DNA from: an uncultured delta proteobacterium | GTDB lineage: Bacteria > Myxococcota_A > Polyangia > Polyangiales > Polyangiaceae | Length of the DNA: 64,000 nucleotides | Reading direction: 5' to 3' | NCBI GenBank assembly: GCA_903906315.1 | Contig: CAIVJW010000048.1 | Span: 1-64,000 of the forward strand | Part shown: in pieces, positions 8,901 through 63,197 of the stretch | Numbering within the stretch: position 1 is the first letter of the stretch | How the letters are laid out: each line of letters begins with the position of its first letter | The notes under the pieces: model-generated | Seen by the model: only the letters and a program-made list of their open reading frames with translations | The model's database searches: none | What the model was told of the DNA's origin: nothing | Position numbers and translations under genes: made by a program

Positions 8901-11757
8901 CGACGTCTCGCGGTCGGCGGGCATGATCATCGAGTCGTTCGACGTGAAGTGCCACGTCGGCGCGACGCTCGTCTACTCGATGACCACGGTCTTCGGCTTC
9001 TTCCCGCGCGAGGCCTTCGTCAACCAGGTCGGCCTGCCGGTGACGCCCGAAGACCGCGCGCGCCTCGCCGCGCCCTCGGCCTTCGGCGTGGACCTCGAGG
9101 CGCGGCCGGCGAAGTACTTCGGCACGAGCCTGCGCCTCGCCGACCCGATGCTCTGCATGATCGACCGCGTGACGGCCTACGAGCCGGAGGGCGGCAAGAA
9201 GGGCCTCGGCTACGCGCGCGCCGAGAAGGACGTCGACCCGGCGGAGTGGTTCTTCAAGGCCCACTTCTTCCAGGACCCGGTGCAGCCCGGATCGCTCGGC
9301 GTCGAGGCGCTGCTGCAACTGTTGCAGCTCGCGATGATCGAGCGCGGGCTGGGCGACGGGATCGAGGGCGCGCGCTTCGAGCCGATCGCGATCGAGAAGC
9401 AGGCGATCTGGAAGTACCGCGGCCAGGTCGTCCCGAGGAACGAGCGCATCACGACCGAGATCGACGTGATCGAGATCGGCCACGACGACCGCGGCCCGTT
9501 CGCGGTCGCCGAGGGATCGCTCTGGGTCGACGGCAAGCGCATCTACCACATGGCTCGCCTCGCGATGCGCATCGCGACCGGCGGCAGCCCGCCCGACCCG
9601 CAGCGCGATCGCAAGGGATCGGGCTCTGCGCCGACGACGCCGCGCGACGCCGAGGAGACGCTCGACCCCGCGCGCGACGCGTGGCTCGGCGATCACCGGC
9701 CGACGTGGACGTTGCCGGCGCTGCCGATGATGTCGATGGTCGACCGCCTCGCTGGCGCCGCCGCGCGCGGCTCTTCGCAGAAGGTCGTCGAGCTGCGCGA
9801 CGTCGAGGTGAAGCGGTGGCTGCCCTTCCCCGGCGGCGCGGTTCGGCTGCGCACCGAGGTCGACGCGTCCGCCGACGGCCCGCGCGTCACGCTGTCCGCG
9901 TTCCGCGAGGCGCGCGATCCGGCGCTGTCGCGCTTCGAGCCCGTCGCCTCCGGCCGCGTCGTGCTCGCCGACGCCTACCCGCCCGCGCCCGCCGCGCGCG
10001 CGCCGATCGCGGACTCCGCGCCGGCCGAGGATCCGTACGCGTCGGGCGGCCTGTTCCACGGGCCGAGCTTCCACATGCTGCGATCGTGGCGCGTCGGCGC
10101 CGGGGGGTCCTCGGCGACGATCGACTGCGCGCTCCGCGGCGTGCCGAAGGGCGCGCTGCACCAAGGCCTGCTCGACGCGCTCACGCACGCCATTCCCCAC
10201 GACGAGCTCGCGCGCTTCTCGCCGGAGATCCCGGGCGACGTCGTCGGCTACCCGTACCGCATCCCGTCGCTGCGCCTCTTCGGCGAGCTGCCGACCTCCG
10301 GCGAGGCGCGCCTCGAGACGCGCTTCGCGGGCTTCGACGGCGACGCTCGCTTCCCGAAGCTCGCGATCGAGCTGTCGGTCGGCGGCGTCGTCCGCGCCGA
10401 TCTCACCCTCGTCGAGATCCTCCTGCCGAAGGGGCCGATCGGCCGCGCGAGCCGCGCCGATCGCCGGGCGTTCCTGCGCGACCGGCGCCACGTCGAGGGC
10501 GTGCGCCTCTCGCGCGCCGACGGCGACGCGACGGTCGCGGGCCCCGACGACGTGCGACCGAGCGACTGGCTGCCCGGCAACGTCGCGACGATCTACGGCG
10601 CATCGGGCGCCGACCTCGTCGCCGAGGTCGCCGTGCGCGATCACGTCGCGCGCCTCGAGCGCGCTCACCCGAGCGACGTGCGTCCGAGCGACGACCTCGC
10701 GAGCGCGACGATCGCGTCGCGTCCGCTCCGCCGCCACGCGCTCTCGGTGACGCGCGACGGATCCTCGGTGCGCGTCGCGAGCGCCGCCCCCGCCGCGATC
10801 GACCTCACCCCCGTCGAGGCCTACTGGCGCGGCGCCTTCGCGCGCGGTGCGTGGCCCGTCGAGGACCTCTACTACGGCATGATCGAGCGCTTCGTCGGCG
10901 ACGTCGTGATCGCCGATCCGGCCGCGCACGAGGCGATCCGCGGCCGATCGTGCCTGTACCTCGCGAACCACCAGACCGGCGTCGAGTCGCTGATCTTCTC
11001 CGTGATCGCGTCCGGCCTCTCCGGCGTGTCGACGGTCACGCTCGCCAAGGCCGAGCACCGCGGCACGTGGGTCGGCGACCTCATCCGCCGCAGCTTCTCG
11101 TACCCCGGCATCGTCGACCCGAACCTCATCACGTACTTCGACCGCGAGGACCGCGAGTCCTTGATGCGCATCATCGGCGAGCTCGGCCAGGAGATGCGGA
11201 CGCGCGGCAAGAGCGTGATGGTCCACGTCGAGGGCACGCGCGCCCTCTCGTGCCGCCCGCCGGTCCTCAAGCTGAGCTCCGCGTTCCTCGACATGGCGAT
11301 CGCGGTGAACGCGCCGATCGTGCCGGTGCGCTTCCTCGGCGGCCTGCCCGTCGACGACCTCGCGGTGCGCACCGAGTTCCCGGTGGGCCCGGGCCGGCAG
11401 GACGTCTGGCTCGGCAAGCCGATCCTGCCCGCCGAGCTCGTGGGGCTGCCGCTGAAGGAGCGCAAGCTCGCGGTCGTCGACGCGATCAACGCGCTCGGCG
11501 TCCGCAACGAGGACGAGCGCCCGAGCGCGCCCGACCTCGCGTTCGGCGATCGGGCCGAGGCGTGGCGCGTGAAGACGGGCACGACGGCCGAGCGGGCGAT
11601 GCTCCTGGCGACGCTCGACGCGATGCCGCGGTGGCGCGCCGACGACACGCGGCGGCTCGTCGAGGCGGCCCGACGCGGCGAGGTCGTGGGCGGCGACGGG
11701 CCGTCCGGCGCGTGGCTCGAGGGCTTCGCGGCCTGGCTCATCGGGCGCGACGGCTGA
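2911..11757 (+). CDS. pfa3: PUFA synthase Pfa3/PfaC-like (KS-CLF-AT-DH-DH-DH'-AGPAT)
   Basis: A 2948-residue megasynthase, started at GTG 2911 because it overlaps the pfa2 stop as GTGA and begins directly with the ketosynthase fold. KS: Cys194 in DAACASS, His329 in ECHATGT, His365 in NLGHLI. The chain-length-factor domain has Gln623 (ICAEQASG) in place of the KS cysteine, as in type II PKS CLFs. The acyltransferase has Ser949 in IGYSSGES, a variant of GHSxG. A Pro/Ala linker with a Gln-rich helix follows (about 1220-1440). Two FabA-like double hotdogs come next with His1706 (GHFKNDPCMPG) and His2118 (AHFFQDPVQPG). A further PKS-DH-like region contains FHGPSFHML near residue 2380. The C-terminal PlsC-type acyltransferase has NH at 2686-2687 and EGTR at 2774, and could move the finished acyl chain to lysophosphatidate. 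The enoyl reductase partner Pfa1 is not in the window. Confidence 0.95.
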   Translation: MTFEPIAIVGQGAVLPGALSPEALRELAFAGRSAVRGAPAGRFRLPDQHALGAPDHADDRTWSDAGGYVEGFDRVFDPGGFRIDTDTIGALDPSFRWLLHAGRQALAPIGLAGASPRAGLVIGNLSFPTGAMARHAESVWLDAQGEGLLGGRARELAGVDRPDPRCRFMSGLPAHLAATALGLGAGGFALDAACASSLYAIKIACDRLHDRTADLMVAGAVNGADALFLHVGFCALGAMSRTGQSRPFHREADGLVPAEGAALVALMRLADARAAGHRVLGVVRGVGLSNDGRGRGLLAPSEEGQIRAIRLAYAMSGLTPRDVSLVECHATGTPVGDGTEIRSMRAIYEGARDVPIGSLKSNLGHLITAAGVAGLIKVIGAFDARERPPTLHADAPIDALAGSPFRLIAQREPWPSDGPRVAAVSAFGFGGNNAHLIVSEDDGRAPASAARAAAPKRAPIAIVAVGARAFGTTGAAEAARALLSGDRIAGRRAAVEVALTGLRFPPRDLEAALAQQSLVLEAAREAAAGLSLPRERTGVFIGLGADPEVARYGMRWRLAAWADAWAAKTGFAPPEGWVARARDAVVPRLEAAGVLGTMPNVPANRLSSQLDLGGPGYVICAEQASGVVAIEVAARALREGEIDAALVGATDASDEPVHRAALAALGLDTGAGDAAIVIALERLDDARAAGHRVIAVLGDDPAEGALLVGDEGGAVDPIRGASPHAAAGLVHAAAAALAIGHAARPSEGRGPIPWLGPRAAETRTRVLGGGVASVRLRAGDAPAPLRLEAPPRLFVYSGASRAAVIAALDAGREGGPGPARLVIVAATEDERASRAAAARRHLEKGGPATEGIAFRDAPLVGEVALCFPGAAAAYQGMGRELALAFPRQVESLAARFSSIDGATRWSFGPPGDPPHPLDQLWSCAFLCQLHREISRDVIGLRPSATIGYSSGESNAQFAMGAWRDVDAMVRASWESSIFLRDLVGDHASAKTAWRALGHESTGTWRAWSVAAPIEAVREALAGEPLAHLTIINTPDDCVVGGEESACARVVEKLGRVHSQPLGYDMEAHCPEIEPIRAAWYDLHHRATFDVPGVRFYSAGAPAAYAASSDATAAAITAQAVDTLDYPRVIERAWADGVRVFVEHGPRGLCAGWIRRILGDRDHLAVSLDVAGKSGVRQLANATAALVAAGVPVDLDALHRALGADDPPATKAGPTLTLPAHPPPVNLPTIQAAPQTMAPAPKLTPVIDPGMGARALPPRRPTAPASDPSAASAAGVDRPQVPAVRGEDPIAQPAETFVTQTPSATGEILARAMDHQARLGAVHRGFLEAQAATHQRFLAMQQGMLASLTATYAASLSAPADRAASPTPAARSDDGQAAQTAARTSTGGPTTAGPAGGPSRPADPARREPRAPTLAPGALPGPKLDRAQLEVLASGAISSVLGAEFADQDGYARQVRMPMPPLLLADRVTGIEGAPHSMKTGTIWTETDVREDSWYLHEGRMPAGVMIESGQADLLLISWLGADRLNRGDRVYRLLGCELTYHGELPKPGETLVYDIHVDGHAKQGDIRLFFFHYDCRVNGELRLTVRGGQAGFFTDQELLESGGILWDAATGDHKATGPLDPPQIACTKRRFGEAEVRAFSEGRVVDCFGPGYERAHTHVRTPRISGDRMLFLREVVDCDPKGGPWGRGYLRAETPITPEDWTFDGHFKNDPCMPGTLMFEGCLQAMAFYLAAMGFTVDRDGWRFEPVTGDTIPMRCRGQVIPTSKRLTYEVFIDEVVAGPVPMAYADLLCTVDGLKAFHARRVGLRLVPGWPLDEWQRLPVVSGSDPAHAALDLPRLGGLRGSTEPKPVAVVDGFPFDYRSMIACAWGRPSAAFGPMYKPFDSTRSVARLPGPPYHFISRVTRADAPIGVLKAGGVIETEYDLPEGAWYFDVNGHRTMPFAVLLEAALQPCGWLASYVGSALTTDADLLFRNLDGKGTQHAEILPGAGTLRTTVKITDVSRSAGMIIESFDVKCHVGATLVYSMTTVFGFFPREAFVNQVGLPVTPEDRARLAAPSAFGVDLEARPAKYFGTSLRLADPMLCMIDRVTAYEPEGGKKGLGYARAEKDVDPAEWFFKAHFFQDPVQPGSLGVEALLQLLQLAMIERGLGDGIEGARFEPIAIEKQAIWKYRGQVVPRNERITTEIDVIEIGHDDRGPFAVAEGSLWVDGKRIYHMARLAMRIATGGSPPDPQRDRKGSGSAPTTPRDAEETLDPARDAWLGDHRPTWTLPALPMMSMVDRLAGAAARGSSQKVVELRDVEVKRWLPFPGGAVRLRTEVDASADGPRVTLSAFREARDPALSRFEPVASGRVVLADAYPPAPAARAPIADSAPAEDPYASGGLFHGPSFHMLRSWRVGAGGSSATIDCALRGVPKGALHQGLLDALTHAIPHDELARFSPEIPGDVVGYPYRIPSLRLFGELPTSGEARLETRFAGFDGDARFPKLAIELSVGGVVRADLTLVEILLPKGPIGRASRADRRAFLRDRRHVEGVRLSRADGDATVAGPDDVRPSDWLPGNVATIYGASGADLVAEVAVRDHVARLERAHPSDVRPSDDLASATIASRPLRRHALSVTRDGSSVRVASAAPAAIDLTPVEAYWRGAFARGAWPVEDLYYGMIERFVGDVVIADPAAHEAIRGRSCLYLANHQTGVESLIFSVIASGLSGVSTVTLAKAEHRGTWVGDLIRRSFSYPGIVDPNLITYFDREDRESLMRIIGELGQEMRTRGKSVMVHVEGTRALSCRPPVLKLSSAFLDMAIAVNAPIVPVRFLGGLPVDDLAVRTEFPVGPGRQDVWLGKPILPAELVGLPLKERKLAVVDAINALGVRNEDERPSAPDLAFGDRAEAWRVKTGTTAERAMLLATLDAMPRWRADDTRRLVEAARRGEVVGGDGPSGAWLEGFAAWLIGRDG

Positions 11758-46536: not shown

Positions 46537-47016
46537 TTAGCCGAGAGTGTTCGATGGGGCCCCGAGCTCGGCGCGCAGCAGGATCACCGTCGCGTCCACC
46601 GCCGCCTGGAGCGCGGGCGAGAGTGACATCGAGAAGGTGCCGCTCGGCCGCTCGATTTCCGCCCCGAGCACCTCGATCGCGGGCATCGGTCGCCCGTCGA
46701 ACAGGATCGGCAGGACGTGGAAGAGGTGGCTCAAGTCCATGGCGTGCGCCGAGAACGTCTCGACCGGCGGCGCCAGCTCGTCGAGCCGCAGGCGATGCAG
46801 GCGCCCCGGCGAGCCCCGAAGCTCCAGGGCGTCGACCACCACGGCACGGTCGCAGTCGTCGAACGCCGCGAGCGCGCCGAGGCCGAGCGTGCTGCCGTCG
46901 AAGATACGCACGTGGGCAGGCCAGAGGTGCGCGAGGAGCCGCCGGTGGACGTGCACGCCGAAGCCGTCGTCCCCCTGGACGAGGCTCCCGAAGCAGACGA
47001 CGTGGACGACTAGCAC
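46537..47016 (-). CDS. hupD: [NiFe]-hydrogenase maturation protease
   Basis: A 159-residue endopeptidase of the HyaD/HybD/HycI family, which removes the C-terminal peptide of the large subunit after nickel insertion. GTG 47016 is chosen since it overlaps the large-subunit stop by seven bases and puts the nickel-sensing motif VCFGSLVQGDDGFG at the N-terminus, as the family requires; the acidic pair DD is the expected nickel ligand region. The central DDCDRAVVVDALEL carries the second conserved acidic site, and FSAHAMDLSHL the conserved histidine. Its presence fits the 13-residue C-terminal extension on the large subunit. Confidence 0.9.
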   Translation of the reverse strand: MLVVHVVCFGSLVQGDDGFGVHVHRRLLAHLWPAHVRIFDGSTLGLGALAAFDDCDRAVVVDALELRGSPGRLHRLRLDELAPPVETFSAHAMDLSHLFHVLPILFDGRPMPAIEVLGAEIERPSGTFSMSLSPALQAAVDATVILLRAELGAPSNTLG

Positions 47017-48542
47017 GCGCCGAAGCGCGCGCGCTGTCCGGTGCGGACGAAGTGGACCGTGCACACCAGGCAGGCGTCGTGCGACCGGATGACGTGCCCG
47101 AGCTCGACCGGGTCGCTCTCGTCGGGAATGGGCGTGCCGATCAACGATTGCTCCCAGTGCCCGCGCACGCCGGCGGAGTCCCGAGGAGAAGCGTTCCAGC
47201 CCGTCGGCGAGATGACCTGATAGCGGGCGATCTTCCCCTCGCGGAGCTGCAGCCAGTGCCCCAGCGCGCCGCGCGCCGCGTGGACGAGGCCCGCACCGTC
47301 GCCTTCGTCGACGTCCCGGGGAGCGAGGTAGAAGGGGTCTGCGAGATCGCGCTCGAGGTCGAGGAGGGTGCGCCGGAGCAGCGACAGCGACAGCGCCGGG
47401 CGGTGGAGGCGCGCGAGCTGGCGCGTGAAGACGTCGACCCCCTCGGCGCGATAGAGCGACTCGATCAGTGGATCTCCCGCCATGAAGAGCTCCGGAAAGC
47501 AGCCGACCTCGACGACGTTGTCACGGTAGCGCGGCGCCTTCGCCCACGAGTACTTGTCGCCCTCCGGCTCGTAGCTCGGCACCGTCTCCCCCTTCCACGG
47601 GTGGGCCGGAGCGTGGTCTCGATACCACGAGTGCTTCACGTGCTCCGAGACGTCGGCCTGGGAGAACGGCTCGATGCGCGACGTGGCGGCGTCGTGGAAG
47701 CCACCGGCGCGCAGGCAGTGCCGCTCCGTGAACGGCGGCTGCCAGCGCGCGGGGTCGAAATACGCCCCGTAGCTGAGCATGCTGCCGCTGCCGCGACCGA
47801 GGCGCTGCAGGCCGACGTCGCGCGCCACGCGGACGAAGAGCCCGAGCGCGCCGTCGCGGTGCTCGGGCCGCTCGTCGATCCAGCGGTCGAGATCCTCGAG
47901 CGACCGAACCTCGAGCCAGCGATCGATCGAACAGCCGAGGACCGTGCGCTCGTACCACCGCGCGTAGCCGTCGAGGATCGAGAGCGCCTTGACCAGGCTG
48001 CGGCGGCTCTGCGCCCCGACCACGCCGCCGGGCACCATGTGCGAGGAGTGCGGCCACTGGCCGGCGAAGATCGCCACGACCTCGAGGAGCCTCTTCGTCT
48101 CGACGATCGTCTCGCGATAGACGCGCCCCGTGAACGGCGCGAAGGCCTCGTGGAGCTTGTCGCGCTCCGGATGGCCTGCGTAGCGAGGGCCGCACAGGTC
48201 GACCGTGAACATGAGGAACGCATGGCGCGCGTCCGACTGGATCTCCTCGGTCAGCAGGCAGGCGTTGCGCACCCGCGTGCCGTTCTGCGCGATCGCGCAC
48301 CCCATGGCGGTCTCCAGCGCGGTGACCGCCGCATACAGGTGCGCGGTGCCGCAGATCCCGCAGATCCGCGGGGTGATCACGAGCGCGTCCTTCTTGGCGC
48401 GGCCGAGCAGCAGCTGCTCGAAGCCGCGATACGTGGTCCCGACCGTCCAGGCGTCGGTGACGACGCCGTCCTCGATCTCCAGCTTGACGAGGAGATCCCC
48501 CTCCACGCGATTCAGTTCGACCGAAAGGGTCCGCTTGGCCAT
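47010..48542 (-). CDS. hupL: [NiFe]-hydrogenase large subunit, group 2-like
   Basis: A 510-residue catalytic subunit that carries the NiFe centre for H2 splitting. ATG 48542 has GAGG upstream and starts at the conserved LNRVEGDL. N-terminal ligands are in RICGICGTAH (Cys61, Cys64, His68). C-terminal ligands are in DACLVCTVH (Cys491, Cys494, His497), followed by 13 residues that the protease would cleave after His497. The usual DPC is DAC here. The N-terminus resembles cytosolic group 2 enzymes (cyanobacterial HupL, mycobacterial Huc) rather than membrane-bound group 1. Encoded between the small subunit (22 bp upstream) and hupD (overlap). Its operon with a kinase suggests H2 sensing or a signalling-linked uptake role. 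Confidence 0.93.
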   Translation of the reverse strand: MAKRTLSVELNRVEGDLLVKLEIEDGVVTDAWTVGTTYRGFEQLLLGRAKKDALVITPRICGICGTAHLYAAVTALETAMGCAIAQNGTRVRNACLLTEEIQSDARHAFLMFTVDLCGPRYAGHPERDKLHEAFAPFTGRVYRETIVETKRLLEVVAIFAGQWPHSSHMVPGGVVGAQSRRSLVKALSILDGYARWYERTVLGCSIDRWLEVRSLEDLDRWIDERPEHRDGALGLFVRVARDVGLQRLGRGSGSMLSYGAYFDPARWQPPFTERHCLRAGGFHDAATSRIEPFSQADVSEHVKHSWYRDHAPAHPWKGETVPSYEPEGDKYSWAKAPRYRDNVVEVGCFPELFMAGDPLIESLYRAEGVDVFTRQLARLHRPALSLSLLRRTLLDLERDLADPFYLAPRDVDEGDGAGLVHAARGALGHWLQLREGKIARYQVISPTGWNASPRDSAGVRGHWEQSLIGTPIPDESDPVELGHVIRSHDACLVCTVHFVRTGQRARFGAC

Positions 48543-48564
48543 CTTGCTCTCGTCCTCGACCCGC

Positions 48565-49509
48565 TCAGAGCTTGGATTTGCGCTCGAGGAGCCGCGCCGG
48601 CGCCGCGGACCGAGCGAGGCCCTTGTAGGCCATGTACGAGGCCCGATTGACCCCCAGCGGCAGGACCACCGGCACCTCACCGATCTTGTTGGTCTTGAAC
48701 AGGTCGTGCGCTCTGGGGAAAGCCGGGGACGTGCACGCGAAGCAGGGCACCCCGACGCGCGGCTTGCTGCTCTGGTTGTTCCACAAGATGCTGTTGCAGG
48801 TCGCCATCGTCGTCGGGCCTTCGCACCCGAGATTGAAGAACAGGCAACCGGGTGCTCCGAAGTCGCGCTCCTCGACGTCGAACTCGTGGTACTCATTTCG
48901 CGTGCAGCCCTGGTGCACCAGCGTCGAGTAGAACTCGGTCGGTCGGTGAAGGTGATCGAGCTCGAGGCGCATGCCGGAAAGAGCCCACAGCAGCGTCTGC
49001 ACCATGGTGTTCGGGTGCGCGGGGCAGCCGGCCAGGTTGATCACCGGGAGCCCAGCACGGGACCGGAACTCCCGCTCGAGGAGCCCGCCGTCCGGCTCGT
49101 CGCGGAGGAACTGCAGGCCGACGGCGTCGGTGGGGTTCGGCCCCGAGGCCGGGATGCCCCCGAACGCCGCGCAGGTGCCCATCGCGAGGACGAACTGCGC
49201 CTTGGCGGCGAGGCCGGCGACGAGGTCCTTCTTGGGCCGTCCTCCGAAGGAGTCGAACATCCCCGTCCCGTCCGGCCCGAGCAGGATCGACCCCTCGACG
49301 CACAGCACGGTGAGATCGATCTCGTCGGCCAGGATTCGGTCGATCGTCCGGCCGAGGTCGGCCGCCGACGTCGGCGAGAGCGACGGGTGCCACAGGAGCT
49401 CGACGCCGTGGCCCTCGAGGAGCTCCAGCAGGTCGGGTGACTCCGCGCAGAGCAGCGACATGGAGTCTCCGCTGCACGCGGCCGTTTGCATCCACAGCAG
49501 GGTCGGCAC
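48565..49509 (-). CDS. hupS: [NiFe]-hydrogenase small subunit, group 2-like
   Basis: A 314-residue electron-transfer subunit. GTG 49509 has GAGGAG upstream. There is no Tat signal, so it is cytosolic as in group 2. The N-terminal proximal-cluster motif reads ACSGDSMSLL: Cys12 is present but the usual second cysteine is Asp15, as also happens in cyanobacterial HupS (ACSGNT). Other iron-sulfur ligands are in MGTCAAFGG, LAGCPAHPN, LVHQGCTRN, NLGCEGPT, MATCNSIL and VPCFACTSPAF, enough for three clusters. There is no C-terminal membrane helix. It directly follows the Rieske-like sensor kinase gene (39 bp), so electrons from H2 could reach that kinase. Confidence 0.93.
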   Translation of the reverse strand: MPTLLWMQTAACSGDSMSLLCAESPDLLELLEGHGVELLWHPSLSPTSAADLGRTIDRILADEIDLTVLCVEGSILLGPDGTGMFDSFGGRPKKDLVAGLAAKAQFVLAMGTCAAFGGIPASGPNPTDAVGLQFLRDEPDGGLLEREFRSRAGLPVINLAGCPAHPNTMVQTLLWALSGMRLELDHLHRPTEFYSTLVHQGCTRNEYHEFDVEERDFGAPGCLFFNLGCEGPTTMATCNSILWNNQSSKPRVGVPCFACTSPAFPRAHDLFKTNKIGEVPVVLPLGVNRASYMAYKGLARSAAPARLLERKSKL

Positions 49510-54098: not shown

Positions 54099-54326
54099 GG
54101 GTGCTCCTCGCCCCTGTCGAAGCTCCGGCGACGGGCGGCTCCCGCGACGGCTATGGGACGGGGTCCATGGATCGGCCCCATCGGAGAATGCTTTAGGATC
54201 GCAGTCGGCGAATGTCGCGAGGCGCCCCCGCTCCGCTCGGCCCGCCGGCGCGCCGGGATTGCGCCCGCGTACGTGCCGAGATACCCGCTCACCTCGCGGG
54301 CGGAGCGCTCGCAGAGGAGCCTCTTC

Positions 54327-56351
54327 ATGAATCGCTCGCACTACCGCCTCTTCGCCCTCGCGGTGCTCGTCGCCGGCTGCGGCAGCGAGCCAGAGGGGCT
54401 CCCGGCCTCCTCCCCCTCCACGACCGGTGGTGCGCCCGCGCCGGTCGCGCGCTTCGCCGTGCCGGCAGACCTGGCGTCGCTCGATGGTTCGGGCTGGCTC
54501 GACCACCCGTGGCCGAGCGACCTCCGACGCGAGGCGGACGGCCGGGTTCGTCTCGCCGGCTTCCCGAAGGCGGACCTCCCCGGCGCCGTCTCCGCCTGGG
54601 TGAGCCAGGTTCGCGACGAGCTATCGGACTTTTCGCCCGTCGCAGCCGGGTTCCTCGCGTTCGAGGGAGCGATCGACCCCGGCCAGCTGCCGGACGCGGC
54701 GGCGTCGCTCGAGGCGTCGTCCGTTTTGCAGCTCGTCGACGTCGACGAACGCAGCCCCGACGTCGGCAAGCGCGTCCCCCTTCAGTGGGCGTGGCGCGAG
54801 CCCGTGGGCTACTACTTCGTCGCACCGAACACGCTCGCGTTCGCGCCGGCCCTCGGCGCGTCGATGAGGCGATCGGAGCGCTACGCCGTCGTCGTGACCC
54901 GCGAGCTCACCGGACCGGGCGGCGCCGCGGCGCCGAATGCCGATCTCGCCGAGCTGCTGGCCGGTCGTGGGCCGCTCGCGGCGAGCTGGTCCCCCGCGAT
55001 CGACGCGCTCGAGAAGGCCGGCGTCGCGCGCGCGCGCATCGCGCACCTCTCCGTGTTCACGGTCGGCGACCCGGTCGCCGAGACCGTGAAGCTCGCCGCG
55101 CACGCCCGCAAGCAGCCGCTCCCCAAGGTCGAGACCCTCACGCTCGCGAGCCTCGGAGAGGGCGGCTTCGACGAGTACACCGGGTTTTACCTGGGCGCTC
55201 CGGACTACCAGGTCGGCACCCCCCCGTACTCCTCCGAAGGCGGGCAGATCGCCCTGGACGACGCCGGGGATCCGATCGTTCAGCGCACGCTCCGACAGCG
55301 CTTCAAGCTGCTGGTGCCGAGCGCCGCGAAGTGCCCGCCCCCCGCGGACGGATACCCGATCATGCTCTATGCCCATGGCACCGGGGGTGACTGGACGACC
55401 CTGATCACGGCGGGCACCGGCGCAGCGCTGGCGGCCAGCTGCATCGCCTCCATGTCCGTCGACCAGCTCTTCCACGGCGTGCGCCCCGGCGCGCCGCCGG
55501 AGGACGACCCGAACGCCGAGGCGAAGGCCGGGGTCGCCTTCTTCAACGTGTCGAACGCCAACGCCCTCCGCAACAACAACACGCAGGCGGCTATCGACGA
55601 GGTCATGCGCGCGCGGCTCGTGCAGAGCGGCGGCCTCACGATCGACGCTGCCGCCTCGGCGAGCGGCGCGGCGATCGCGTTCGACCCGAAGCGGATCGGC
55701 TTCTACGGGCACTCGCAGGGCACCTTCAACGGCGCCGTGTTCCTCGCGCTCGACGAGAACCTCGCGCGCGGCGCCGTCCTCTCCGGCTCGTGCTCCTCGT
55801 TCGCCCACTGGACGATGCTCCGCGTGAACATCCAGCCGTCGGTGCCCCACCTGCTCGAGATCGTCCTCGGCGTCCCGGCTGATTTCCACGACGAGCTCGG
55901 TCCCCTGCACCCGGCCATGGCGCTGTTCCAGACGATCGCCGACCCGTCCGATCCCATCCACTACTACCCGCTGATCACGCGCGCGCCGCTCGAGGGCCAC
56001 GCGCCGAAGAGCGTGCTGATGACCGAGGGCATCGCGCCCGACGGCTCCGGCGACAACTACGTCCCGCCGCCGATCATCGAGGGCAACGCGATCGCCGGGG
56101 GCTTCCCGCTCATCGCCCCGGTGGTGCGCGACATCCCGCTCCTCACCCAGGTGTCGGGCATCCGCGTCGCGACGCCTCCGTTCGCCGGCAACCTCGCCGG
56201 CGGACAGGCGACCGGCGGCCTCGCGCAGTTCGTGCCCTCGGGCGGCGTCGACGGGCACTACGTCGCGCGGCAGGGCAAGGCCCTCGCGATGACGATGACG
56301 TACGCGGAGTCGCTCCTGTCGACGAGCGTGCCGACGATTCCGGCGCCCTGA
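54327..56351 (+). CDS. Lipoprotein alpha/beta hydrolase
   Basis: A 674-residue protein. ATG 54327 has GAGGAG eight bases upstream and begins a lipoprotein signal (LFALAVLVAGC, Cys18). The hydrolase part shows YPIMLYAHGTGGDW (oxyanion HG), nucleophile Ser463 in GHSQG and a late His in GVDGHYVA. Residues ~60-330 form a large N-terminal region typical of myxobacterial/Bdellovibrio surface hydrolases. The substrate is unknown. It is divergent from the cheY operon and lies 100 bp before the ArsM-like gene; the gap makes co-transcription with that cluster possible but not certain. Confidence 0.85.
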   Translation: MNRSHYRLFALAVLVAGCGSEPEGLPASSPSTTGGAPAPVARFAVPADLASLDGSGWLDHPWPSDLRREADGRVRLAGFPKADLPGAVSAWVSQVRDELSDFSPVAAGFLAFEGAIDPGQLPDAAASLEASSVLQLVDVDERSPDVGKRVPLQWAWREPVGYYFVAPNTLAFAPALGASMRRSERYAVVVTRELTGPGGAAAPNADLAELLAGRGPLAASWSPAIDALEKAGVARARIAHLSVFTVGDPVAETVKLAAHARKQPLPKVETLTLASLGEGGFDEYTGFYLGAPDYQVGTPPYSSEGGQIALDDAGDPIVQRTLRQRFKLLVPSAAKCPPPADGYPIMLYAHGTGGDWTTLITAGTGAALAASCIASMSVDQLFHGVRPGAPPEDDPNAEAKAGVAFFNVSNANALRNNNTQAAIDEVMRARLVQSGGLTIDAAASASGAAIAFDPKRIGFYGHSQGTFNGAVFLALDENLARGAVLSGSCSSFAHWTMLRVNIQPSVPHLLEIVLGVPADFHDELGPLHPAMALFQTIADPSDPIHYYPLITRAPLEGHAPKSVLMTEGIAPDGSGDNYVPPPIIEGNAIAGGFPLIAPVVRDIPLLTQVSGIRVATPPFAGNLAGGQATGGLAQFVPSGGVDGHYVARQGKALAMTMTYAESLLSTSVPTIPAP

Positions 56352-56451: not shown

Positions 56452-57093
56452 ATGAGCGAAGCGATCGAGACGAGATACGGCGGCCTGGCCGAGTCGAGCT
56501 GCTGCCTCTCCTGCGGCACCGCCGCTCAGTCTTGCGCGCCGAAACCCGGGCAGGTTTGCCTGGATCTCGGCAGTGGGCGCGGGACGGACGTGCTGCGCCT
56601 CGCGGAGGCGGTGGGCCCGACGGGGCACGCCTACGGCGTCGACCTCGCCGACGGCATGCTCGAGAAGGCGCGGCGCACCGCGGAGAAGCTCGGCGTCACG
56701 AACGCGACCTTCTTCCGGTCGACCTTCGACCGCCTCGCGCTGCCGGGCGAGTCGGTCGACTGGGTGGTGTCGAACTGCGCCCTGAACCACGCCGACGACA
56801 AGCCGGCGGTGTGGCGCGAGATCGCGCGCGTCCTGCGCACGGGCGGCGCGTTCGTCGTCAGCGACATCTACGCCGCCGAGCCGATCCCCGAGGATCTCGC
56901 CCGCGACCCGGAGGCGGTGGCGGAGTGCTGGGCCGGCGCCGTGACGCGCGCCGAGTACCTCGCCCAGATCGCGGCCGCGGGGCTCGTGGACGTCCGCGTC
57001 CTCGAAGAGAGCACTCCGTACGAGAAGGGCAAAGCGGTCGTCGCGAGCTTCACCCTCACGGGCACGAAGCGAGCGTCCGGCCGCTGCTGCTGA
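56452..57093 (+). CDS. ArsM-like SAM-dependent methyltransferase
   Basis: A 213-residue protein from ATG 56452, with AAGGAGG seven bases upstream. The SAM-binding motif CLDLGSGRGTDVLRLAE and GVDLADGML match arsenite methyltransferases. Cys109 (VSNCALN) and Cys159 (AECWAGA) are 50 residues apart, the spacing of the two arsenic-binding cysteines (174 and 224) in the well-studied algal ArsM. An N-terminal SSCCLSCG and the last residues RCC add further thiols. It is shorter than typical ArsM (270-400 residues), lacking the C-terminal domain. Arsenite or a thiol-bound arsenical is therefore the likely substrate. First gene of the radical SAM cluster; 32 bp precede the peptide gene. Confidence 0.85.
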   Translation: MSEAIETRYGGLAESSCCLSCGTAAQSCAPKPGQVCLDLGSGRGTDVLRLAEAVGPTGHAYGVDLADGMLEKARRTAEKLGVTNATFFRSTFDRLALPGESVDWVVSNCALNHADDKPAVWREIARVLRTGGAFVVSDIYAAEPIPEDLARDPEAVAECWAGAVTRAEYLAQIAAAGLVDVRVLEESTPYEKGKAVVASFTLTGTKRASGRCC

Positions 57094-57125
57094 TCGCACG
57101 GCACTGCATGTCACGGAGGTATCGA

Positions 57126-57257
57126 ATGAAGTCGTTGATCAAGGGAAATGCGAGCGCTCCTGCGGCCCCCGAGCCGCAGGGCGCGACGGCCGTCGAGGCG
57201 ACGGTGGCGCAGTGCTGCGCCAAGGTCTCCAGGACGGTCGCGGGCTGCCACGACTGA
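57126..57257 (+). CDS. Candidate RiPP precursor peptide (43 residues, CC...C)
   Basis: ATG 57126 has GGAGG six bases upstream, a strong signal for so small a gene. The peptide has a short basic start (MKSLIKG), an Ala/Pro-rich middle resembling a leader, and a C-terminal part with Cys30-Cys31 and Cys41 before the ending CHD. It sits between the ArsM-like methyltransferase and the radical SAM/SPASM enzyme, the classical position for a peptide substrate. No known precursor family is recognised. The cysteines could be sites of thioether formation or of arsenic binding; both are inference. Confidence 0.7.
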   Translation: MKSLIKGNASAPAAPEPQGATAVEATVAQCCAKVSRTVAGCHD

Positions 57258-57344
57258 GCAGCGCCTCGGAGGGCCGCGCGGTCCCGGTGTGCAGTACCGC
57301 CGGAGCCGCGCGGCCGTTCGTCGCGCGTCGAGGGGACGGCTTCG

Positions 57345-58658
57345 ATGGAACTGTCGCGCCACAACATCCTGACCCGCGTCCACGACGCCGACGCCTACCT
57401 GCTCGCCAACCTGCTCAGCCGCCAGGCCGACGTCCTGCCGCTCGAGGACGGCCAGCGCCTCGAGCGCGGAGAGCTCGTCCACGAAGCCGACCTCGTCGCC
57501 AAGGGCTACCTCGTCGAGCCCGACGAGGAGCGCAGTCGCTTCCGGAAGGCGTACCTCGGTTTTCTCGCGTCGCGCGAGTCCGACGAGGTTCAGCTCTTCT
57601 ACGTCCCGACGTACGCGTGCAATTTCGGCTGCTCGTACTGCTACCAGGACGAGTACGCGCCGCCCCCCGTCGAGGCGCAGGACGCCGTCCTCGAGGCGTT
57701 CTTCGCGTACGTCGAGGCGACGTTCACCGGGCGCCGCAAGTACGTCACGCTGTTCGGGGGCGAGCCGCTGCTCCCGAGCCCGTCGTCGCGCCACGTCGTC
57801 ACGCGCCTCGTGACCGAGACGGCGCGCCGCGGCCTCGATCTCGCGGTCGTGACCAATGGCTACCACCTCACCGAGTACGTCCCGCTGCTCGCGGGGGGGC
57901 GCATCCGCGAGGTCCAGGTCACGCTCGACGGCACCGAGCGCGTGCATGATGGCCGCCGCTACCTCAAGGGCGGCGCCTCGACCTTCCGTCAGGTCGTCGC
58001 CGGCGTGGACGCCTGCCTCGCCGCCGGTCTGCCCGTGAACCTGCGCACCGTGCTCGACCGCGACAACGTGGAGGCATTCGCGGACCTCGCCCAGTTTGCC
58101 ATTGCGCGCGGCTGGACGGACAGCCCGCTCTTCAAGACGCAGATTGGCAGAAACTACGAGCTTCACCATTGCCAGAGCGAGCGGCAGAAGCTCTACACGC
58201 GGCTCTCGCTCTACGAGGACCTCTACCGGATCGCGAAGGCGAGCCCGGAGCTCCTGCGCTTCCACGAGCCCGCGTTCTCCGTGGCGCGCTTCCTCTTCGA
58301 GCGCGGCGCGCTGCCGGACCCGCTCTTCGACGCGTGCCCGGCCTGCAAGACGGAGTGGGCCTTCGACTACACGGGCCGCATCTACCCGTGCACGGCCAAC
58401 GTCGGCAAGCAGGGCGAGGCCGTCGGGACGTTCTACCCGCAGCGCCGGCTCGACGCGGCGCTGACCGAGCCGTGGGAGGACCGCGACGTGATCGCCATCG
58501 ACACGTGCAAGAGCTGCGCAGTGCAGCTCGCCTGCGGCGGCGGCTGCGGCGCGGTCGCGAAGAACCGCGACGGGACCGTGACGGCCCCCGACTGCCGCCC
58601 GATCAAGGAGCTGCTGTCGCTCGGCGCCGCCCTCTACGGCGGTGACGCCGTCGCCTGA
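57345..58658 (+). CDS. Radical SAM/SPASM peptide-modifying enzyme
   Basis: A 437-residue protein from ATG 57345, preceded by GAGGGG. The N-terminal ~85 residues resemble the PqqD-like/RRE-type wing of peptide maturases. The radical SAM cluster motif is ACNFGCSYC (Cys92, Cys96, Cys99), followed by LFGGEPLL. The C-terminal SPASM region has ACPACKTEW, IYPCTANVG, CKSC and ACGGGCGAV, enough for two auxiliary [4Fe-4S] clusters. Relatives install thioether, C-C or epimerised residues in ribosomal peptides or act as anaerobic sulfatase maturases; with the small Cys peptide next door, the first is favoured. The 87-bp gap to the peptide gene is modest. Confidence 0.92.
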   Translation: MELSRHNILTRVHDADAYLLANLLSRQADVLPLEDGQRLERGELVHEADLVAKGYLVEPDEERSRFRKAYLGFLASRESDEVQLFYVPTYACNFGCSYCYQDEYAPPPVEAQDAVLEAFFAYVEATFTGRRKYVTLFGGEPLLPSPSSRHVVTRLVTETARRGLDLAVVTNGYHLTEYVPLLAGGRIREVQVTLDGTERVHDGRRYLKGGASTFRQVVAGVDACLAAGLPVNLRTVLDRDNVEAFADLAQFAIARGWTDSPLFKTQIGRNYELHHCQSERQKLYTRLSLYEDLYRIAKASPELLRFHEPAFSVARFLFERGALPDPLFDACPACKTEWAFDYTGRIYPCTANVGKQGEAVGTFYPQRRLDAALTEPWEDRDVIAIDTCKSCAVQLACGGGCGAVAKNRDGTVTAPDCRPIKELLSLGAALYGGDAVA

Positions 58659-58766
58659 CGCGCGCACCCCGAACCGCTTCCGACGCGCCAGGCTCTACCG
58701 TTGCGAGCAAGCGCTGCCCGCAGTGAGCCGCGCCTCCGCACCCGTGCACGCCGACGAGGTAGATCG

Positions 58767-60059
58767 ATGTCCGCCAAGGTCCGTGAGATCGACGCCGAGA
58801 GCTTCCAGGTCGAGGTGCTGGCCCAGGAGGGGCCCGTCGTCGTCGACTTCTACTCGACCGAGTGCGCTCCCTGCGAGGCGCTCGCCCCCAAGTACGAGGC
58901 GCTCGCCGAGCTCTACGGTGCCGACGTGAAGTTCGTGAAGATCTTCCGCCAGCAGAGCCGCGAGCTCTCCGAGCTCTTGGCCGTGCGCACCTCGCCTACG
59001 GTCCTGTTCTTCCGCAACGGCCAGGAGGTGAGCACCCGGCAGAGCGGAGGCATCCGCCGGTCGGCCCTCGTCGCCTCGCTCGACACGCTGGTCTCGCCCG
59101 ATCGCGCGGCGGAGATCCACGCCGCCGTCCGCCCGGTCGAGACGCGGTGCGACGTCCTCATCCTCGGCGCCGGCCCCGCCGGCATCACGGCGGGCATCTA
59201 CTCCGCGCAAGCGAAGCTCGACACGATCATGGTCGACATCGCCCTCGGCGGCGGCAACCTGACCGTCACGCACCAGGTGTCGAATTTCCCCGGCTTCCCC
59301 AAGCCGCAGCAAGGCTTCATGCTCGCGCACTACCTGCTCGAGCACGCCAAGGAGGCGGGCGTGAAGGGGCGCTTCGCGGCCGAGATCACCCGCGTCGATC
59401 TCGCCGCACACGAGGTCGTCCTCGACGGCGTCGAGACGATCCACGCGAAGAGGATCATCATCGCGACGGGCTCGTCTCCCCGCACAATCGGGGTCTCCGG
59501 CGAGGTCGAGTACAAGGGCAAGGGAGTGTCGTACTGCGCGACCTGCGACGCCAAGTACTACGAGAACCAGCACGTCATCGTCATCGGTGGCGGCAACTCG
59601 GCCATCGAAGAGGCCCTCTTCATCGCGCGCTTCGCCTCGAAGATCACCGTCGTGCACCAGTTCGCCGAGCTCCAGGCCAACAAGCAGGCGCAGAGCCTCG
59701 CCTTCGCGAACCCGAGGATCGAGTTCCTCTTCCGCCACGAGCCGCGCGAGTTCGTCGCGTCCGACGGGCGCGCCATCGACGCCGTCGTGGTCGAGGACCT
59801 CGAGACGCACGAGCGCAAGACCCTGCCCTGCGGCGGCGTGTTCGTCTTCGCCGGCATGCGCCCGAACCTCGAGCTCTTCGAGGGCGCCTTCGAGCTCGAC
59901 CGCTTCGGCTACGTCAAGGTCGACGAGGAGATGCACACGAACCTCCCGGGCGTGTTCGCGGCCGGCGACATCGTGAGCAAGCGCTACCGCCAGATGACCA
60001 CCGCGGTCGCCGACGGCACCATCGCGTCGATCGCGCTGGCCCGTGAGCTCGCCGCATGA
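58767..60059 (+). CDS. Thioredoxin - thioredoxin reductase fusion
   Basis: A 430-residue protein from ATG 58767. Residues 1-110 are a thioredoxin fold with the variant site ECAPCEAL (Cys33, Cys36; CAPC). Residues 125-430 are a low-molecular-weight thioredoxin reductase: FAD motif GAGPAGITAG, redox pair CATC (Cys257, Cys260), NADPH motif GGGNSAIEEA, and the C-terminal FAGMRPN and GVFAAGDI. Thioredoxin precedes reductase, the reverse of the Mycobacterium leprae fusion. It would supply electrons to thiols, which arsenite methylation needs. The transporter gene overlaps it by ATGA. Confidence 0.93.
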   Translation: MSAKVREIDAESFQVEVLAQEGPVVVDFYSTECAPCEALAPKYEALAELYGADVKFVKIFRQQSRELSELLAVRTSPTVLFFRNGQEVSTRQSGGIRRSALVASLDTLVSPDRAAEIHAAVRPVETRCDVLILGAGPAGITAGIYSAQAKLDTIMVDIALGGGNLTVTHQVSNFPGFPKPQQGFMLAHYLLEHAKEAGVKGRFAAEITRVDLAAHEVVLDGVETIHAKRIIIATGSSPRTIGVSGEVEYKGKGVSYCATCDAKYYENQHVIVIGGGNSAIEEALFIARFASKITVVHQFAELQANKQAQSLAFANPRIEFLFRHEPREFVASDGRAIDAVVVEDLETHERKTLPCGGVFVFAGMRPNLELFEGAFELDRFGYVKVDEEMHTNLPGVFAAGDIVSKRYRQMTTAVADGTIASIALARELAA

Positions 60060-61858
60060 CCGACGACCCGGAGCGGCGCTGGCTTCGCGAGGTCCACCGG
60101 CCCGACGACCCGCAGCTCACGCCGCGCGCCGTCCTGACCGGCATGGCCGTGGGCGGCGTCCTCTGCCTGTCGAACGTCTACGTCGTCCTGAAGACGGGCT
60201 GGAGCCTCGGCGTCACGCTGACATCCTCCATCCTCGCGTTCGCGATCTTTCGCGCGCTCGGGTCGATTGGCGTCGTACGGCGCGACTTCTCCGCCCTCGA
60301 GAACGCCATGATGGCCTCGGTCGCCTCGGCCGCGGCCTTCATGACCGGCGGGGGCAACATGGCCGCGCTGCCCGCCCTCCTCGTGCTCACCGGCGCGCGG
60401 CCCGGCGGGCTGCCGATGTTCCTCTGGTTCGCCGCCATCGCCGCGTTCGGCGTGGTCGCCGCGATCCCGTTCAAGCGGCAGCTGATCAACCTCGAGGCGC
60501 TTCCCTTCCCTTCGTCGGTCGCCGCCGCCGAGACGATCCGCTCGATGCACGCCGGACGATCCGGTGGGGGCCGCGCGAGGAGGCTGCTCGGCGCCGCCCT
60601 CGTCGCGGGCCTCGTCACGTTCCTGCGCGACTCCCGCGCTCACTGGCTGCCAATGCACCTCCCGGGCCGGGTCGCGCTGCCCTTCTCGATCGGCGGACAC
60701 CCCGCCGCCGCCTGGTCGCTCGCCTTCGACGGGAGCCTCGTGCTGGTCGGTGGCGGCGCGCTGATGGGCCTGAGGACGGCGTGGTCGATGCTGATCGGGG
60801 CCGCGCTGACGTACGGCGTGATCGCGCCGGCCATGGTCGCGCGCGGCGTCATCCCCTCGGTCGACTACAAGGCCATCGTCCAGCTCACGCTGTGGCCCGG
60901 CGCCGCGCTGATGGTCTCCTCCGGACTCCTGTCCTTCGCCTTCCAATGGCGGACGGTCGCCCGCTCGCTCGGCGGACTCGTGTCCGCCTTCCGCCCCCGT
61001 GCGATCGCGGAGCCCGACGACCCGATGCACGCGGTGGAGGCGCCCGCGTGGTGGTTCCCGGCGGGGGTCGCGCTGATCGCGCCCCTCGTCGTCACGCTGA
61101 TGCACACGCTGTTCGACATCCCTGTCTGGGCCGGAGTGGTCGCCATTCCGCTCGCGATCCTGATGGCCGTGGTCGCCGCGCGCGTCACCGGCGAGACCGA
61201 CATCACGCCGACCAAGGCCATCGGTCCGGTGACCCAGCTCGTCTACGGCGGGATGCTACCGGGCGACGTCACCGCCAACGTGATGAGCGGGAACGTCACC
61301 GGAGGCGTCGGCCTGCACGCGGCGGACCTGCTCTCCGACATGAAGACGGGCTGGTTGCTCGGCGTGACGCCGAGAAAGCAGGTCGTCGCGCAGATGTTCG
61401 GCGTGCTGGTCGGCGCGGCCGTCGTGGTCCCGGCCTTCACGCTACTCGTGCCCAGCGCCGACGCCCTCGGCACGCCCGAGCTGCCCGCGCCGGCCGTGAT
61501 GGTGTGGGCCGGCGTCTCGAAGATGATGTCCGGCGGCCTCGCCGGCCTTCCGCACCCAGCGCGCGTCGCGACGCTGATCGGCGGCGTCCTCGGCGCGGTC
61601 CTGACGGTCCTCGAGCGCGCGGCCCCCCGCCACAAACACCTCATCCCGTCGCCTTCGGGCCTCGGCCTCGCGATGGTCATGCCGGGGTCGAACGCGCTGA
61701 CGATGTTCGTGGGCGCCGCCATTGCGGCCGGCGTGAAGCGGCGCCAGCCTGCGGCCCTGGGCGCCGTGCTCGTGCCGATCGCCTCGGGCATGATCGCGGG
61801 CGAGAGCCTGGTCGGCATCACGCTCGTCCTCTCCCGCGCCCTCGGGCTCGCGGCGTAA
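60056..61858 (+). CDS. OPT-family oligopeptide/metal-complex transporter
   Basis: A 600-residue membrane protein with about 14-16 hydrophobic segments. N-terminal region: TPRAVLTGMAVGGVLCLSNVYVV; conserved internal segments GGGNMAALPALL, LINLEALPFPSSVAAAETIR and ETDITPTKAIGPVTQLV, all characteristic of the OPT/YSL group. Such carriers move peptides or metal-chelate complexes by proton symport, and in bacteria mostly import. Here it is translationally coupled (ATGA) to the thioredoxin-reductase fusion, so it probably handles the product, precursor or metal ligand of the cluster. Confidence 0.9.
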   Translation: MTDDPERRWLREVHRPDDPQLTPRAVLTGMAVGGVLCLSNVYVVLKTGWSLGVTLTSSILAFAIFRALGSIGVVRRDFSALENAMMASVASAAAFMTGGGNMAALPALLVLTGARPGGLPMFLWFAAIAAFGVVAAIPFKRQLINLEALPFPSSVAAAETIRSMHAGRSGGGRARRLLGAALVAGLVTFLRDSRAHWLPMHLPGRVALPFSIGGHPAAAWSLAFDGSLVLVGGGALMGLRTAWSMLIGAALTYGVIAPAMVARGVIPSVDYKAIVQLTLWPGAALMVSSGLLSFAFQWRTVARSLGGLVSAFRPRAIAEPDDPMHAVEAPAWWFPAGVALIAPLVVTLMHTLFDIPVWAGVVAIPLAILMAVVAARVTGETDITPTKAIGPVTQLVYGGMLPGDVTANVMSGNVTGGVGLHAADLLSDMKTGWLLGVTPRKQVVAQMFGVLVGAAVVVPAFTLLVPSADALGTPELPAPAVMVWAGVSKMMSGGLAGLPHPARVATLIGGVLGAVLTVLERAAPRHKHLIPSPSGLGLAMVMPGSNALTMFVGAAIAAGVKRRQPAALGAVLVPIASGMIAGESLVGITLVLSRALGLAA

Positions 61859-61899
61859 CCGCGCGTCCGAGGGGGCCACTCCACCGAAAGGAACGAACC

Positions 61900-62064
61900 A
61901 TGCAGAAAGAGATCACGGTCGCCGAGTTCGCCGAGGAGCTGACTGCCCGCATCGACGGGTCGAAGGGCATCGACTGCTGCAAGGAGGAGCTGAAGAAGCT
62001 GGCCGCGCTGGCCAAGGAGCGCATGCCCGACGAGAAGATCACCGTGAACTGGAAGGACGCCTGA
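61900..62064 (+). CDS. Small 54-residue Cys-Cys protein
   Basis: ATG 61900 follows AAAGGA by eight bases. The predicted protein is acidic and largely helical, with a single Cys26-Cys27 pair in SKGIDCCKEE and an ending in WKDA. It lies 41 bp after the transporter in the same direction. No family is recognised. It might be a metalloid-binding carrier or a second substrate; its ending is unlike the 43-residue peptide and it lacks a leader-like Ala/Pro stretch. Confidence 0.65.
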   Translation: MQKEITVAEFAEELTARIDGSKGIDCCKEELKKLAALAKERMPDEKITVNWKDA

Positions 62065-62369: not shown

Positions 62370-62639
62370 CTAGCGCGGCATGTCTCCGAGTCCGCCCGCG
62401 TTCACGACGTCCGTGTAGCCGGCCTGAAGCAGCATGCGCGCGGCGGTCGCGCTGCGGCCACCGGACGCGCAATACACGACGACGGGCTTGTCCTTGGAGA
62501 TCTCGCCCATGCGGGCGCCCAGCGACTGCACAGGGATGTTCACCGCGCCGGGATAGGCGCCGTCCCGGAACTCGTCCGGGGTGCGCACGTCGACGATCTT
62601 CGCTCCAGCCTTGATTCGATCCATCACCGGGTCAGCCAC
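62370..62639 (-). CDS. Rhodanese-domain protein (small, GlpE-like)
   Basis: An 89-residue single rhodanese domain from GTG 62639, preceded by AAGGAG eight bases upstream; the open frame further upstream is unrelated. The active loop is YCASGGRS with Cys57, and the CH2A region is VDVRTPDEFRDGAYPGAVNIP. Likely a cytosolic sulfurtransferase or persulfide carrier. It converges on the ArsM/radical SAM operon; it could serve its sulfur chemistry but is not co-transcribed. Confidence 0.88.
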   Translation of the reverse strand: MADPVMDRIKAGAKIVDVRTPDEFRDGAYPGAVNIPVQSLGARMGEISKDKPVVVYCASGGRSATAARMLLQAGYTDVVNAGGLGDMPR

Positions 62640-63197
62640 GAGGTCTCTCCTTGCTTGTTGGTTGAATGAGCGCTGCCACGCCGACGGCGCGGCGCCATGA
62701 GCCGGGTATTGTGCGCGGACAGCGGTCCGCGGGCTTCGACGCGAGCCGCCCGGCGACGTCCACGACGCCGGCCGCCCGACGAGAAGGTAGCGCCCTCGCA
62801 CGTCCTCCTCGCCCCGAAATGCCCCGCCCGGAGTCGCCACCGTCGCGGTCGTCGTGTCCGCCACGCTACCTACAGAGCCAGCCGCGCGCGGTTGGGTTCG
62901 CGGGCACGCACCAGTCGGCGCCGCCGAGCTCCGTCGCGGGCGTACGAAGCGATCCCCTGGTGCTGTTCCGGAGCTCCTCGGCGGGGGACGACGCTCGTCG
63001 TCGCGGGCGTTCCGGACCCTCGCGAGGCGCTACCCGAGGCTCGCCCCGGCCCCGAGGACGCTTCGCGCAAGACTCGGCTTGCCCTCAGGCGACCCATCCC
63101 GCAGCATCGAGGCTGGGCGGGTGACCCCGCCGCGACCGGGAAGGGTTCCCAGGGTCACGGCAAAGGGCGCCCCCCCGTGGGGCCAAGGCGAGTGCAA
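62640..63197. other. Long divergent intergenic region with a nested inverted repeat
   Basis: About 560 bp separate the rhodanese and HDOD genes. No protein of recognisable type is encoded. At 63121-63158 an outer inverted repeat GTGACCC/GGGTCAC encloses an inner GGGAA/TTCCC, 40-80 bp before the HDOD start; it could be an operator or leader RNA structure. I find nothing else. Confidence 0.4.

Follow-up and report, generated by a model that had tools for sequence, protein, structure and literature searches.

The locus and its genes

The system described here is a compact gene cassette within a 64,000-nt stretch of GC-rich DNA (hereafter the window) from an uncultured delta proteobacterium of the Polyangiaceae (assembly GCA_903906315.1, contig CAIVJW010000048.1, positions 1–64,000 of the forward strand). 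Its core is a conserved four-gene unit coding, in order, for an S-adenosylmethionine (SAM) methyltransferase of the ArsM type, a small cysteine-containing peptide, a radical SAM enzyme with a SPASM domain and a thioredoxin–thioredoxin reductase (Trx-TrxR) fusion protein. An initial annotation, made from the sequence alone, had read six co-directional open reading frames (ORFs) at this place as a possible arsenic-linked pathway for a ribosomally synthesized and post-translationally modified peptide (RiPP). All six are found, all on the plus strand, and the features of the locus are as follows:

56452..57093, + strand: ArsM-type SAM methyltransferase, 213 aa, shorter than ArsM in lacking its C-terminal part; cysteines C17, C18, C21, C36, C109 and C159
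57126..57257, + strand: peptide gene, 43 aa, MKSLIKG...VAQCCAKVSRTVAGCHD, with a conserved MKSLIKK-like N-terminus and a 16-residue C-terminal core
57262..57325, + strand: predicted RNA stem-loop between the peptide and radical SAM genes (z -4.3)
57345..58658, + strand: radical SAM/SPASM enzyme, 437 aa, recognized by Pfam PF04055, its cysteine pattern and a CteB-like predicted fold
58767..60059, + strand: Trx-TrxR fusion, 430 aa, with redox sites CAPC and CATC (Pfam thioredoxin and pyridine-nucleotide-disulfide reductase)
60056..61858, + strand: OPT-family oligopeptide transporter (Pfam), accessory, adjoining the cassette only in Myxococcota
61900..62064, + strand: CC54 protein, 54 aa, motif IDCC[KR][DE]E[IL]K, accessory, beside the cassette in some Myxococcota
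62370..62864, - strand: rhodanese-domain ORF (PF00581), convergent with the cassette, to which a link is possible if unproven

The Pfam assignments of the four large proteins are those anticipated and agree with the identities first given to the radical SAM enzyme, the Trx-TrxR fusion and the OPT transporter, and a GGAGG upstream of the peptide gene accounts for the strong ribosome binding site attributed to it. The peptide and the CC54 protein match no family in Pfam or NCBIfam.

Conservation and co-inheritance of the cassette

With the radical SAM protein as query, genome contigs yielded 247 relatives. The best 80 loci among them belong to Myxococcota, Bacteroidota, Spirochaetota, Elusimicrobiota and one Ignavibacteria metagenome-assembled genome; one carrier, Marinilabiliaceae bacterium A049 (L080), has a record that does not label it as metagenome-assembled. 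In most of these 80 loci the order methyltransferase, peptide, radical SAM enzyme, Trx-TrxR is kept, as seen by tblastn. Counting the window, the peptide is present at 78 of 81 loci, lying in the relatives between the methyltransferase and enzyme genes; of the three loci without it, one (L015) starts at a contig edge, while the genomes of the other two (L045 and L057) contain the peptide together with a methyltransferase at another place, which in L045 is some 10 kb upstream of the enzyme. The peptides range from 27 to 43 aa in length, nearly all of the 78 begin with an MKSL[IV]K-like N-terminus, and all 78 end in the same 16-residue pattern, A-Q-C-C-A-K-x-S-x-x-x-x-G-C-H-D, with 11 invariant positions. 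Between pairs of loci, the core codons show 1.6, 2.1 and 9.5 differences at positions 1, 2 and 3, respectively, which points to strong purifying selection on the peptide as a protein. Thus, the concern voiced with the initial annotation, that the peptide might prove absent or unconserved in relatives, has been dispelled.

Some variants depart from this arrangement. In a divergent cassette at L119 (G044, 1232-4898), the radical SAM gene (42% identity) lies on the strand opposite to the methyltransferase, peptide and Trx-TrxR genes, and the leader of the peptide is altered to MKLLTRVRK with the core AQCCAKASRLVAGCHD retained. A second Myxococcota lineage (L120 and L121, in G064 and G030) has a longer leader, MKPIT..., and carries CC54 directly after Trx-TrxR.

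The co-occurrence of peptide and enzyme is near-perfect across 484 sampled genomes. Among 188 Myxococcota genomes, searched with a peptide profile and a radical SAM profile (E < 1e-60), the peptide occurs in 8 and the enzyme in 9, with all 8 contained within the 9; the ninth is truncated, its enzyme lying where the contig ends. Among 296 Bacteroidota genomes, the peptide (E < 1e-10) and a high-scoring enzyme (at least 666 bits) are found in the same 5, the next-best enzymes scoring at most 214 bits and lacking the peptide. The corresponding Fisher p values, which ignore relatedness, are 3e-13 and 5e-11. Peptide, SPASM enzyme and ArsM-like gene are conserved together in several phyla, as the initial annotation had proposed to check. 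The pairwise distances of methyltransferase, radical SAM enzyme and Trx-TrxR also correlate (Mantel r 0.74-0.83, with permutations < 0.2). The cassette is rare, being present in 2-5% of the sampled genomes, and its scattered occurrence suggests horizontal transfer; no carrier of the mobile-element kind was found, inasmuch as plasmid records contain, at E 1e-40, nothing related to the radical SAM enzyme, and the viral contigs of IMG/VR no exact match to the peptide motif.

The hairpin that follows the window's peptide gene is very stable by prediction and belongs to a wider pattern: 43 of 53 peptide–enzyme gaps in the relatives fold at z < -2, as against 15 of 68 control gaps (6/28 between enzyme and TrxR, 9/40 between methyltransferase and peptide; p 6e-11). 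The stem-loop sequences vary among relatives and are followed in several loci by a T-rich stretch. RiPP operons often yield more peptide than enzyme, and the simplest reading of the predicted structure is that it would cause partial termination, so that more peptide than enzyme is made. It is a probable attenuator or stoichiometry element.

A radical SAM enzyme of the peptide-maturase fold

The radical SAM motif CxxxCxxC (C92/C96/C99) and a seven-cysteine SPASM pattern (C331..C349, C388xxC391x5C397x3C401..C417) are invariant in 25 of 25 enzymes. The fold closest to the AlphaFold model of the window's enzyme (predicted local distance difference test score, pLDDT, 90.6) is that of CteB (5wgg; Z 27.2 over 394 residues, 3.7 A, 16% identity), a thioether-forming maturase of SCIFF peptides. 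On the predicted fold, the alignment spans model residues 4-435, with the N-terminal leader-binding region (resembling a RiPP recognition element) included. With this enzyme none of the NCBIfam maturase models reaches its cut-off, and no family name therefore tells what reaction it carries out. There is good support for assigning the cassette to the radical-SAM RiPP-type systems, and since the cassette is real, conserved and co-inherited, the RiPP part of the earlier reading stands.

The methyltransferase and the question of arsenic

The paired cysteines 50 residues apart that had been noted in the methyltransferase are C109 and C159. In a profile alignment C21, C109 and C159 correspond, in this order, to C72, C174 and C224 of CmArsM, the As(III)-binding cysteines of that enzyme, and all 22 of the 22 members aligned have the triad C21/C109/C159. 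The AlphaFold2 model (pLDDT 91) has ArsM structures as its best matches in the PDB. The description of this protein as arsenite-methyltransferase-like thus survives with respect to the fold and the three cysteines, but not as family membership: it scores 176 bits against NF008823, below the ArsM family cut-off of 263, and its clade is separate from canonical ArsM (support 99/91). The tree contains long branches (L154, L152), and only the separateness of the clade is drawn from it; one apparent outsider (L159) is another cassette with peptide and enzyme. The protein ends where the C-terminal part of ArsM begins, and it has additional cysteines—C17 and C18 in most members, C36 in all—that the canonical ArsM proteins of the relatives lack.

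Neither the genes around the cassette nor the content of the genomes points to arsenic. The host has ACR3 and a canonical ArsM as a pair on one contig (C380), with the cassette on another (C48). Canonical ArsM is present in 15/28 carriers of the cassette and 12/28 non-carriers (p 0.59), and ACR3 in 19/28 and 17/28, respectively (p 0.78); 9/28 carriers are without ACR3, and in none of the 28 does it share a contig with the cassette. The arsenic-resistance families ACR3, ArsR, ArsC and canonical ArsM are not among the recurrent neighbors, as tallied from the 25 commonest families per set, a tally that families in one or two ORFs could escape. An "arsenic island" or ars operon is accordingly unsupported, whether by neighboring families or by the presence of ArsM and ACR3. 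The arsenic reading is, then, partly supported: the cassette of peptide, SPASM enzyme, ArsM-like protein and Trx-TrxR and the thiol triad of the methyltransferase are borne out, whereas the link to arsenic in the gene context is not. The conservation of the triad is what keeps arsenic among the candidates.

The thioredoxin system, accessory genes and neighbors

Among relatives of the Trx-TrxR fusion, the CATC site is kept in 67/67 and C[PA]PC in 65/67. The OPT and CC54 genes, which the initial annotation had counted as cluster members, prove to be accessory and optional, seen only in Myxococcota and outside the core; OPT often adjoins the cassette there, and CC54, a single-copy gene in the host genome, stands beside it in six genomes, the window included.

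Near Bacteroidota-type loci, 251 ORFs were tallied. Thioredoxins, DUF1847, Crp-type regulators, DUF302, rhodaneses, OsmC, YeeE/YedE-type sulfur transport and ferredoxin-like membrane proteins recur among them, and the 25 commonest families listed include none connected with arsenic. Of 64 non-myxobacterial loci, 30 have small thioredoxins and 22 DUF6132-like membrane proteins, while DUF1847 and DUF302 each appear in 18, the former inside the operon in 9 and the latter directly after Trx-TrxR in 13. The Myxococcota neighbors are mixed. Two papers on genomes of sulfur oxidizers (PMC5037610, PMC5248467) mention DUF302 as well, which fits a sulfur role but proves nothing.

Several further observations may be recorded. 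A DUF1847 gene lies between the radical SAM and Trx-TrxR genes at L022 (9327-9878) and eight other loci, making it a candidate further partner. Rhodanese genes are found beside the cassette repeatedly, in other phyla as well as in the window. Elsewhere in the window there are a lipase-like protein with a weak VolA/Pla-1 match directly 5' of the cassette (54153-56351, +), a very long ORF of 3689 codons (688-11757, +; GC-frame calling) and a nickel-dependent hydrogenase large-subunit domain (47010-48896, -; PF00374).

A proposed pathway and its rivals

We lean towards seeing the cassette as a RiPP-type system, in which the radical SAM enzyme cross-links a thiol peptide for use in sulfur/thiol or metalloid chemistry. 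With its N-terminal region the enzyme would bind the short N-terminus of the peptide, and it would then install a radical-based cross-link in the core AQCCAKxSxxxxGCHD; a cysteine thioether would be the most likely kind, given that CteB has the nearest fold. The Trx-TrxR fusion, as a dedicated reductant, could hold the peptide and the cysteine-rich methyltransferase reduced at the expense of NADPH. To judge by its three-thiol site, the methyltransferase probably methylates a thiolate-bound species, which might be one of the peptide's own cysteines or else a sulfur or metalloid atom carried on it. In Myxococcota, the OPT carrier may move the peptide product. Since the core is near-invariant across phyla, that product probably serves thiol/sulfur or metalloid chemistry as a carrier or in the manner of a cofactor, and it is probably neither a variable antibiotic nor a standard arsenic-resistance device. 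A more specific version is tentative: a cofactor-like, SPASM-matured peptide whose thiol-bound sulfur or metalloid atom is the substrate of the ArsM-type methyltransferase. If true, it would be the first RiPP built on sulfur/metalloid methyl transfer.

Several points weigh against this account. The modification of the peptide by the enzyme and the identity of the methyl acceptor are both inferred, the radical SAM enzyme falls far under every NCBIfam maturase cut-off, the sulfur/thiol neighbors belong to the Bacteroidota-type loci and not to Myxococcota, and the core cassette contains no peptidase, making an excised product uncertain.

Arsenic itself might be the object of the chemistry, with the three cysteines of the peptide holding As(III), the ArsM-type enzyme methylating it and the peptide carrying or incorporating the methylated metalloid. 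The invariant triad, the ArsM-like fold and the number of cysteines in the core agree with such an arsenic-linked peptide, as does the fusion protein, for Trx/TrxR serves ArsM enzymes as reductant partner. It is made unlikely by the lack of recurrent arsenic genes near the cassette, by carriers that are not enriched in ArsM and ACR3 and in part do without the latter, by the separate contig of the host's own ACR3-ArsM pair and by a methyltransferase score below the ArsM cut-off. The small size of the peptide and the absence of a separate peptidase could also be explained by an unmodified metal- or thiol-binding protein, i.e., a metallochaperone or redox carrier, the radical SAM enzyme acting on something else; the CC...CH residues could bind metal, and the accessory CC54 has a CC motif too. 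However, such a protein would hardly be expected to be so strictly paired with, and adjacent to, a SPASM enzyme whose peptide-maturase fold extends to the N-terminal region, and the invariant A, Q, K, S and G are not ligands, on which grounds we hold this explanation to be distinctly doubtful.

At the level of RNA, a short ORF that contains CC and C/H codons and precedes a stem-loop, in several loci with a T-rich tail, is what one might see in a transcription-attenuation leader that senses cysteine (or histidine) supply and controls the downstream enzymes. Yet this ORF is internal to the operon, coming after the methyltransferase gene, and its non-sensing residues (A, Q, K, S, G and D) and MKSL start are conserved across phyla with codons varying freely; the attenuator-leader idea is so improbable that we reject it on this amino-acid conservation.

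The RiPP-type reading thus makes the cassette look like a pathway to a peptide product rather than an arsenic-resistance operon. To our knowledge, near-invariant peptides served by a radical SAM enzyme of their own have up to now been redox cofactors, such as pyrroloquinoline quinone (PQQ) and mycofactocin, or widely conserved cross-linked peptides. The cassette adds a peptide of this kind whose enzyme set, with a methyltransferase of the ArsM type and a thioredoxin system of its own, is described in none of the papers and family libraries searched. Elucidation of the product would yield new peptide chemistry and reveal roles of ArsM-type enzymes outside arsenic detoxification; with its short, well-defined core, leader and enzymes, the cassette is directly testable.

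Comparison with known systems

As radical SAM RiPPs are already known as a kind, what appears to be new is the cassette family, its core motif and the enzyme combination, which are absent from Pfam, NCBIfam (June 2026) and the papers searched. The latter, mainly openly accessible articles on ArsM/radical SAM/RiPP combinations, organoarsenicals with ribosomal peptides, the peptide motif and DUF1847/DUF302/DUF6132, do not describe the cassette.

The cassette methyltransferase shares with ArsM (CmArsM 4FR0; NF008823) the fold and the three cysteines, but adjoins a peptide and a radical SAM enzyme instead of lying in ars operons. The arsenosugar pathway, too, combines ArsM with a radical SAM enzyme, ArsS, and we know of no ribosomal peptide in this or the arsinothricin pathway. 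The arsinothricin genes arsQML likewise join an ArsM-type with a radical SAM enzyme (PMC8552651). The organoarsenical ArsM models NF040538 and NF038099 give the cassette methyltransferase 104 and 64 bits, missing their cut-offs of 500 and 400, respectively.

On the side of the radical SAM enzyme, the best-scoring named relatives are TIGR04463, CefB (NF038107), the geopeptide model TIGR04280 and PapB (NF047865), each of which misses its cut-off by a wide margin (118 bits against 525 in one case) and goes with a peptide of another type. In the PQQ and mycofactocin systems the peptide core hardly changes from phylum to phylum, and a single SPASM enzyme is strictly paired with it. The cassette parallels them in all three respects; it differs in that no such partner enzymes are recognized nearby and in its score of 46 bits against the mycofactocin maturase model (cut-off 265). 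The SCIFF/ranthipeptide system differs in that its peptide has six cysteines in 45 residues as against three in the cassette core, in the low identity of the two maturases, in the 63.8 bits that the cassette enzyme scores against the SCIFF maturase model TIGR03974 (cut-off 425) and in having no counterpart of the extra methyltransferase and Trx-TrxR genes. It is, nevertheless, a parallel over the whole length of the enzyme: CteB (5WGG/5WHY) and the cassette enzyme share the N-terminal leader-binding region, the radical SAM core and the seven-cysteine SPASM domain, and in both systems a gene for a small cysteine-containing peptide adjoins that of the maturase.

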